Source: Candidatus Janibacter merdipullorum
GTDB lineage: Bacteria > Actinomycetota > Actinomycetes > Actinomycetales > Dermatophilaceae
Direction: 5' to 3'
Assembly (NCBI GenBank): GCA_019116945.1
Contig: DXAR01000176.1
Location: 1 to 64,000, forward strand
Length of the DNA stretch: 64,000 bases
A program made the translations under genes and the position numbers. This document shows, one piece after another, positions 29,145 through 30,713 of the stretch (position 1 is the first letter of the stretch; the number at the start of each line of letters is the position of its first letter). The notes under the pieces were generated by a model. It was not told the DNA's origin and searched no databases. It worked only from the letters and a program-made list of their open reading frames with translations.

Positions 29145-29160
29145 AACTCATATATGAGTT
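29145..29160. promoter_or_regulatory. Candidate operator, 16-bp perfect AT-rich palindrome
   Basis: AACTCATATATGAGTT, 11 nt upstream of ATG of HTH-MurA gene. Confidence 0.75.
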
Positions 29161-29171
29161 ATGGTTGCGAC

Positions 29172-30713
29172 ATGTCTGATGACTACCTCGCACGAATCGG
29201 CACGACCATCAAGGAGGCGCGTCGTCGCGCAGGACTCTCGCAGTCCGACCTCGCCGCTCGCCTCGAGACGAGCCAGGGTGCCGTCACCCGCATCGAGGCC
29301 GGTGGCCAGAACCTCACCCTGGACTCCCTCGCCCGGATCAGCGAGGCGCTCGACACCGAGCTCGTCGCCCTGACCCGCACGTCGACAACCGGCGCCGTCC
29401 ACCTCAAGATCGAGGGCGGCCGCACGCTGTCCGGCGCCATCGACGTTAAGACGAGCAAGAACGCCGCCGTCGCGCTGCTCTGCGCCTCGCTCCTCAACAA
29501 GGGCACGACGACGCTGCGCAACCTCGCGCGCATCGAGGAGGTCAACCGCATCCTCGAGGTGCTCGACTCCATCGGCGTCCGGACCCGCTGGCTGCCCGAC
29601 AGCTCCGACCTGGAGATCACCCCGCCGGCGCGCCTCAGCCTCGACACGATGGACGAGGAGGCCGCCCGGCGGACCCGGACCGTCATCATGTTCCTCGGCC
29701 CCCTCCTCCACGAGTTCGAGGAGTTCAAGCTCCCCTATGCCGGTGGTTGCGACCTCGGCACCCGCACCGTCGAGCCGCACATGACCTCGCTGACCCACTT
29801 CGGCCTCGACGTCGAGGCGACCCACGGCTGGTACGAGGCCTCGGTGACAGGGCAGGGCGGGGCCGACAAGACCTTCGTCCTCACCGAGCGCGGTGACACC
29901 GTCACCGAGAACGCCCTCATGGCCGCCGCCCGGTACCCGGGTCGCACGACGATCCGCAATGCCTCGCCCAACTACATGGTCCAGGACCTGTGCTTCTTCC
30001 TCGAGAAGCTTGGGGTCACCGTGGAGGGCATCGGCTCGACGACCCTCGTCGTCACCGGCAAGCAGCACATCGACGTCGACGTCGAGTACTCCCCCAGCGA
30101 GGACCCGATCGAGGCGATGAGCCTCATCGCCGCCGCGGTCGTCACGAAGTCCGAGATCACCATCCGTCGGTGTCCGATCGAGTTCCTCGAGATCGAGCTG
30201 GCCACCCTCGCGGGCATGGGGATGCAGTACACGCTCTCCGAGGAGTACGAGGCCCACAACGGCCGGACCCGGCTCGTCGACATCACGACCCACCCCGGCC
30301 CGCTCAAGGCGCCCATCGACAAGATCCACCCGATGCCCTTCCCAGGGCTGAACATCGACAACCTGCCCTTCTTCGCGCTCATCGCGGCGTGCGCCGAGGG
30401 CACGACGACGATCCACGACTGGGTCTACGACAACCGGGCGATCTACCTCACCGAGCTCAACAAGGTCGGCGGCAAGGTCACCCTCCTCGACCCCCACCGC
30501 GTCCTCGTCGAGGGACCTAACCGGTGGCGCGCCAACGAGGTCACCTGCCCGCCGGCCCTCCGCCCGGGCGTCGTCGTCCTCCTGGCGATGCTCGCCGCCC
30601 CGGGCACCTCCTACCTGCGCAATGTCTACGTCATCCACCGTGGGTACGAGGACCTCGCCGAGCGCCTCAACGCCCTCGGCGCGAGCGTGCAGCCCTTCCG
30701 GGACATCGGCTGA
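29172..30713 (+). CDS. murA: XRE-HTH fused to UDP-GlcNAc 1-carboxyvinyltransferase (MurA2-like)
   Basis: MSDDYLARIGTTIKEARRRAGLSQSDLAARLETSQGAVTRIEAGGQNLTL (HTH) then EPSP-synthase/MurA-type fold (IDVKTSKNAAVALLCASLL, KIHPMPFPGLNIDNLPFF). Confidence 0.9.
   Translation: MSDDYLARIGTTIKEARRRAGLSQSDLAARLETSQGAVTRIEAGGQNLTLDSLARISEALDTELVALTRTSTTGAVHLKIEGGRTLSGAIDVKTSKNAAVALLCASLLNKGTTTLRNLARIEEVNRILEVLDSIGVRTRWLPDSSDLEITPPARLSLDTMDEEAARRTRTVIMFLGPLLHEFEEFKLPYAGGCDLGTRTVEPHMTSLTHFGLDVEATHGWYEASVTGQGGADKTFVLTERGDTVTENALMAAARYPGRTTIRNASPNYMVQDLCFFLEKLGVTVEGIGSTTLVVTGKQHIDVDVEYSPSEDPIEAMSLIAAAVVTKSEITIRRCPIEFLEIELATLAGMGMQYTLSEEYEAHNGRTRLVDITTHPGPLKAPIDKIHPMPFPGLNIDNLPFFALIAACAEGTTTIHDWVYDNRAIYLTELNKVGGKVTLLDPHRVLVEGPNRWRANEVTCPPALRPGVVVLLAMLAAPGTSYLRNVYVIHRGYEDLAERLNALGASVQPFRDIG

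Follow-up and report, generated by a model that had tools for sequence, protein, structure and literature searches.

The gene at positions 29172 to 30713 of the 64-kb stretch of Janibacter DNA analyzed here (the window) probably encodes a protein with two roles, a working UDP-GlcNAc enolpyruvyl transferase (MurA) and a dedicated repressor of its own gene, which would act through a conserved operator in the murA promoter. This reading builds on features that can be taken directly from the sequences, namely the fusion of a helix-turn-helix (HTH) domain to a MurA domain (HTH-MurA), the operator and its position, its occurrence approximately once per genome, its loss together with the HTH, and the lack of another MurA.

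The HTH-MurA fusion and its promoter

The gene (plus strand, ATG start codon at 29172–29174, stop codon ending at 30713) encodes a protein of 513 amino acids. A sequence-only reading had proposed that it joins an XRE-type DNA-binding domain to a full-length MurA-like enzyme, and this was borne out by Pfam matches to both HTH_3 (PF01381, 47.5 bits, exceeding the gathering cut-off of 23) and EPSP_synthase (PF00275, 156 bits). The HTH domain comprises approximately residues 11–65 (29202–29366, plus strand), and the MurA/enolpyruvyl transferase domain, which was delineated through profile, active-site, and structure matches, approximately residues 77–509 (29400–30698, plus strand). The protein scored above the cut-off of the NCBIfam MurA subfamily NF006873 (318.4 vs 297) and below that of the MurA equivalog TIGR01072 (300.4 vs 392.7). 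In the AlphaFold model (mean pLDDT of 84.6), helices were found at residues 24–31 and 35–42, the best PDB matches were all MurA structures (E-values down to 6e-39, target TM of ~0.9), and the linker at residues 64–74, the length of which differs among lineages, was modeled with low confidence (pLDDT <50). The recognition helix corresponds to approximately residues 33–42 (TSQGAVTRIE), with TSQ[SG]A being near-invariant among HTH-MurA orthologs. An in-frame ATG at 29154, inside the palindrome described below, was considered as the start codon and dropped; since it is not conserved in orthologs, 29172 was taken as the start of HTH-MurA. Apparent internal stops in orthologs of genus g11 were also dismissed: judging from G025 and G074, where the matches end at residue 511 and the N-termini are intact, they most likely result from the search overrunning the natural stop.

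The perfect 16-bp palindrome AACTCATATATGAGTT (29145–29160) ends 11 nt upstream of the ATG at 29172, just as the sequence-only reading had described, and 12 of its 16 bases are A/T within DNA of 71% GC. As a bare palindrome, AACTCATATATGAGTT is insignificant by itself, because the window contains 10 perfect 16-bp palindromes (vs ~3.2 in shuffled sequences); what is unusual about it is its AT-richness, its position, and its conservation. No other stretch of the window resembles it with 3 or fewer mismatches, and its exact sequence occurs once in the 2.94-Mb genome, where the suggested scan for further palindromes returned no second copy. In DNA of 71% GC such as this window, palindromes occur frequently, and GC-rich perfect 16-bp examples are found, by composition alone, inside the MurA domain (29803–29818 and 30070–30085) and elsewhere.

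The palindrome forms the core of a conserved 18-mer, CAACTCATATATGAGTTA (29144–29161; family consensus TATCTCAYATVTGAGWTA), which is referred to as the operator in the following. The TA at its right end is shared with a putative −10 hexamer, TATGGT (29160–29165, plus strand), which was predicted from the sequence, lies 6 nt upstream of the start codon, and corresponds to TAnnnT, the usual actinobacterial −10. Across the ortholog loci, the fourth base 3′ of the operator is a T in 139 of 141 cases, resulting in TAnnnT, and the start codon is located 6–7 nt 3′ of this element; no conserved Shine-Dalgarno sequence was found between the operator/−10 and the start codon in these loci. A −10 directly before the start codon, without a Shine-Dalgarno sequence, is the layout of leaderless promoters. 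The HTH-murA transcript is therefore probably leaderless, which would explain the missing Shine-Dalgarno sequence that the sequence-only reading had rightly pointed out. A weak TTG-like signal 4–6 nt 5′ of the operator would mean a spacer of 16 nt; the −35 region is poorly conserved, and a scan for plain sigma-70 consensus promoters called nothing. Since TAnnnT follows directly after the operator, the operator is placed within the promoter spacer, and it appears to fill this spacer as well as the edge of the −10, as a repressor site would.

Operator conservation, copy number, and loss together with the HTH

We consider conservation, not palindromicity, decisive for the operator being real. The HTH-MurA gene was identified in all 16 Janibacter genomes (84–100% identity), and in each of them the operator adjoins it (within 3 mismatches). 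Among the 141 ortholog loci having the operator, many of which are from Streptomyces (104 are left after removal of loci with similar flanks), 137 show a distance of 10–11 nt between the operator (consensus TATCTCAYATVTGAGWTA) and the start codon downstream of it, and this spacing holds despite unequal lengths of the N-terminus among orthologs. The genera concerned include Janibacter, Nocardioides, Aeromicrobium, Mumia, Brachybacterium, and Streptomyces. Furthermore, the mean pairwise identity of the 18-mer amounts to 0.83, compared to 0.29–0.33 in three upstream 18-bp blocks, the flanks being random in sequence, and the conservation reaches past the −10 on both arms. The earlier proposal had been made dependent on conservation of the palindrome in relatives, and such conservation was found from Janibacter to Streptomyces.

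The presence of the operator is closely associated with the state of the HTH. Across 216 distinct upstream regions, the operator is present in 202 of the 206 whose recognition helix (TSQ[SG]A) is intact and in 3 of the 10 in which the helix is altered or lost, with the helix changes in these 3 being mild (Fisher p ~1e-8, a value that ignores relatedness). In L111 from Aeromicrobium, where the helix sequence TSQSAV is changed to TTQSVV, the two arms of the operator (TATCGCATATATGCGATA) carry matching, symmetrical changes (CTC to CGC and GAG to GCG). Moreover, a tree of 81 MurA-domain sequences revealed 4 independent losses or breaks of the HTH, and the operator is gone in all 4. In the genus-level group g10, L066 keeps HTH and operator, while in its sister L215 the HTH is deleted and the operator is gone; likewise, both are kept by L038 in g36, in contrast to L220, L313, L314, L315, and the Arsenicicoccus record L120, and by L032 and L312 in g21, in contrast to L035 and L311. 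A sign test on the 4 pairs yielded p 0.125, four being too few for significance. Because of this and because the Fisher test ignores relatedness, the co-loss strongly suggests, short of formal proof, that the HTH reads the operator. Five rows of the tree, representing two lineages (L101, L103, L113, and L321; L316), combine an intact helix with a degenerate operator (10–13 of 18 positions); in the first of these lineages, the left arm is affected worst, and the degeneration may reflect relaxed or altered regulation.

Where HTH and operator are lost, the gene itself survives, in G050 and G073 as the sole MurA homolog, and the loop would therefore be dispensable in those lineages. L215 (G073, g10) thus represents a natural HTH-less MurA of the HTH-MurA lineage that can be compared with L066. 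The only MurA homolog of G050, L220 (contig 1, ~1261840–1263365), is split near residue 390 by an apparent frameshift, which may reflect a sequencing error, recoding, or a gene of unusual structure.

Additional operator matches were few and scattered. Janibacter genomes contain at most two further matches each, all with 3 mismatches (n = 16), and the operator was detected in 39 of 41 Streptomyces genomes (5.5–11 Mb, ≤2 mismatches), usually once per genome, with the position at murA confirmed for the fetched ortholog loci. A wider regulon was therefore rejected within this scope (≤3 mismatches in the 16 Janibacter genomes, ≤2 in the 41 Streptomyces genomes). With approximately one operator per genome, the scans argue for HTH-MurA being a dedicated autoregulator rather than a controller of a cell-wall regulon, and they lend no support to the earlier suggestion of a general coupling between metabolite status and cell-wall transcription.

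A perfect 20-bp palindrome, TTATCTTGACGTCAAGATAA (36113–36132), is located ~20 nt upstream of the start of acnA (aconitase, minus strand) and has TATCT-N8-AGATA in common with the murA operator. As a second HTH-MurA site it was rejected, since the invariant TCA/TGA core is missing, and it looks like the operator of another regulator. In six relatives, it was not found at the expected distance, in stretches that may not hold the acnA start.

Active site and gene content

Cys193 of HTH-MurA aligns with Cys115 of Escherichia coli MurA, the numbering of which is used for the active-site residues below, and Ala462 occupies the position of Asp369. The alignment that had been proposed for the active-site Cys showed that the catalytic Cys115 is kept in 33 of 33 HTH-MurAs, as are Lys22, Asn23, Arg91, Arg120, Asp305, Arg331, Arg371, and Arg397, but that Asp369 is replaced in all 33 (PPALRP). 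The corresponding region of canonical actinobacterial MurAs reads PDLR or SDIR/HDIR, and these proteins have either Cys or Asp at position 115. In comparison to canonical MurA (TIGR01072), HTH-MurA thus has the same fold, length, and position of Cys115 and shares Lys22, Asn23, Arg91, Arg120, Asp305, Arg331, and Arg397; it differs by an identity of only ~25–35%, by the N-terminal HTH, and by the replacement of both the Asp369 position and the SVG(A/S)TE substrate loop, which is GDTVTE in HTH-MurAs.

In Janibacter genomes, the EPSP-synthase family is represented by AroA and HTH-MurA only, and a canonical MurA was not found in any of the 16. Within the family to which Janibacter belongs, a canonical MurA above the cut-off was identified in 45 of 150 genomes and not found in the remaining 105, and MurB is present in 98 of 100. 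As MurB is present where a canonical MurA is lacking, and as HTH-MurA is the sole MurA candidate accompanying it in Janibacter and most of the family, the enzyme working as MurA in most family members is very probably HTH-MurA; we infer catalysis from gene content because Asp369 is missing and the substrate loop is changed. In genus g33 of the same family, HTH-MurA is absent and two canonical MurAs occur instead (L208 and L209; L222 and L223), one with Asp and the other with Cys at the Cys115 position. Among 61 genomes of the Nocardioidaceae (the family of G321), most have AroA and HTH-MurA only and some have a further member, identified in the three genomes examined for it (G643, G596, and G604) as a canonical MurA whose residue at position 115 is Asp instead of Cys. 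Two Streptomyces genomes that were examined encode a canonical MurA besides HTH-MurA.

Proposed mechanism, alternatives, and known systems

In the mechanism that we propose, an HTH-MurA dimer, paired via the N-terminal XRE HTH, would bind TATCTCAYATVTGAGWTA, which would take up the murA promoter spacer and overlaps the TAnnnT −10 by two bases. The bound dimer would exclude RNA polymerase, resulting in repression rather than activation of an mRNA that presumably begins, leaderless, at or beside the start codon, and the loop would keep MurA at a set level. Release could possibly occur through closure of the MurA domain driven by substrate or inhibitor. Since HTH-MurA is the sole MurA in Janibacter, the loop would control an essential pathway there. 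The autoregulation that the sequence-only reading had envisaged is strongly supported, as the operator recurs in several orders, keeps its place in the promoter, and disappears with the HTH.

Single polypeptides that combine a metabolic enzyme with a transcriptional repressor are exemplified by BirA (the biotin repressor-ligase), PutA, and NadR. HTH-MurA may likewise be a bifunctional enzyme-repressor, with the sequence comparisons above supporting both catalysis and operator binding; however, BirA and PutA control pathway genes, whereas HTH-MurA apparently controls its own gene only, and the HTH type and the enzyme of BirA-type proteins are unrelated to those of HTH-MurA. The nearest architecture is that of BzdR/BoxR, a repressor that is similarly composed of an N-terminal DNA-binding domain (XRE HTH), a linker, and an enzyme-derived domain (PMC3602430). 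The shikimate-kinase-like domain of BzdR is no longer catalytic and serves to sense benzoyl-CoA from a different pathway, while in HTH-MurA most catalytic residues are retained and many genomes have no MurA besides it. By sequence, the antitoxin HipB and the C-proteins of restriction systems (e.g., C.Esp1396I), which are autoregulators, are among the nearest solved XRE relatives of the HTH. The layout of the HipB operator, TATCCN8GGATA (PMC3376134), is that of the murA operator, TATCTN8AGATA (half-sites TATCY-N8-RGATA); unlike HTH-MurA, neither HipB nor the C-proteins have a fused enzyme, and HipB acts with the HipA toxin.

It is hardly conceivable that the palindrome arose by chance or is an AT-rich element that belongs only to the promoter and is bound by no regulatory protein. 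While the ten perfect 16-bp palindromes in the window and the partial coincidence of the motif with the −10 would fit this, it is largely refuted by the conservation of 18 positions over several orders, at an identity of ~0.83 compared to ~0.3 in the flanks and extending past the −10 on both arms. Such a conserved operator could still be owned by another trans-acting regulator, e.g., a different XRE protein, with the HTH of the fusion binding elsewhere or being structural. The two lineages that have an intact HTH and no clear operator would be in line with that, but the disappearance of the operator in each of 4 independent HTH losses, its symmetrical change along with the helix in L111, and the lack of other operator copies in most genomes render it very unlikely.

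If HTH-MurA itself binds the operator, it might also activate rather than repress, realigning the promoter in a MerR-like manner and being required for murA expression. The location of the operator in the −35/−10 spacer and the poorly conserved −35 region are compatible with activation, which we nevertheless regard as unlikely: XRE proteins over the −10 usually repress, the apparent spacing of ~16–17 bp contrasts with the 19–20 bp of MerR promoters, and in G050 and G073 the gene was kept as the sole MurA homolog after loss of HTH and operator. Repression by HTH-MurA is thus preferred, and it could be extended, rather than replaced, by a role as a ligand-responsive trigger enzyme that is mainly a sensor. 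UDP-GlcNAc (or PEP, fosfomycin, or UDP-MurNAc) would then close the MurA domain and alter its affinity for DNA, so that murA expression would track substrate supply or inhibitor stress. MurA of E. coli and Enterobacter cloacae closes on its substrate, the Cys that reacts with PEP and fosfomycin and most active-site residues are kept, and BzdR (PMC3602430) as well as BirA provide precedents for an enzyme-derived domain tuning a fused DNA-binding domain. Yet the sequence gives no sign of domain coupling, and the low-confidence, length-variable linker (residues ~64–74) fits a simple tether equally well; we therefore put this extension forward only tentatively.

In Streptomyces coelicolor, SCO5998 is named MurA2, and a DmdR1 site was predicted between SCO5998 and the aconitase gene (PMC12161575); in addition, a SigB-dependent promoter was described for SCO5998 (PMC8346170). 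Five Streptomyces loci contain the published sequence of this promoter (1–9 mismatches) at a distance of 345–376 nt upstream of HTH-murA, and therefore we infer that SCO5998 is the Streptomyces HTH-MurA ortholog. The earlier claim that the regulation of these fusions is unexplored thus holds only in part: the SigB promoter and the DmdR1 site have been published, whereas no description of the operator or of HTH-MurA autoregulation was found in open-access papers.

Peptidoglycan synthesis begins with MurA, which is also the target of fosfomycin and whose best-known controls elsewhere are post-translational, through ReoM/ClpCP in Listeria and CwlM in mycobacteria. Here, MurA apparently carries its own repressor and has a single dedicated operator, a small system of one protein and one 18-bp site that has been kept over several orders, including antibiotic producers. 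Very probably, the HTH-MurA of many actinobacteria, Streptomyces included, represses its own gene via this conserved promoter site. If this is true, self-repression sets an essential pathway, and the purpose of the widely annotated HTH-MurA (MurA2) fusions would be identified.
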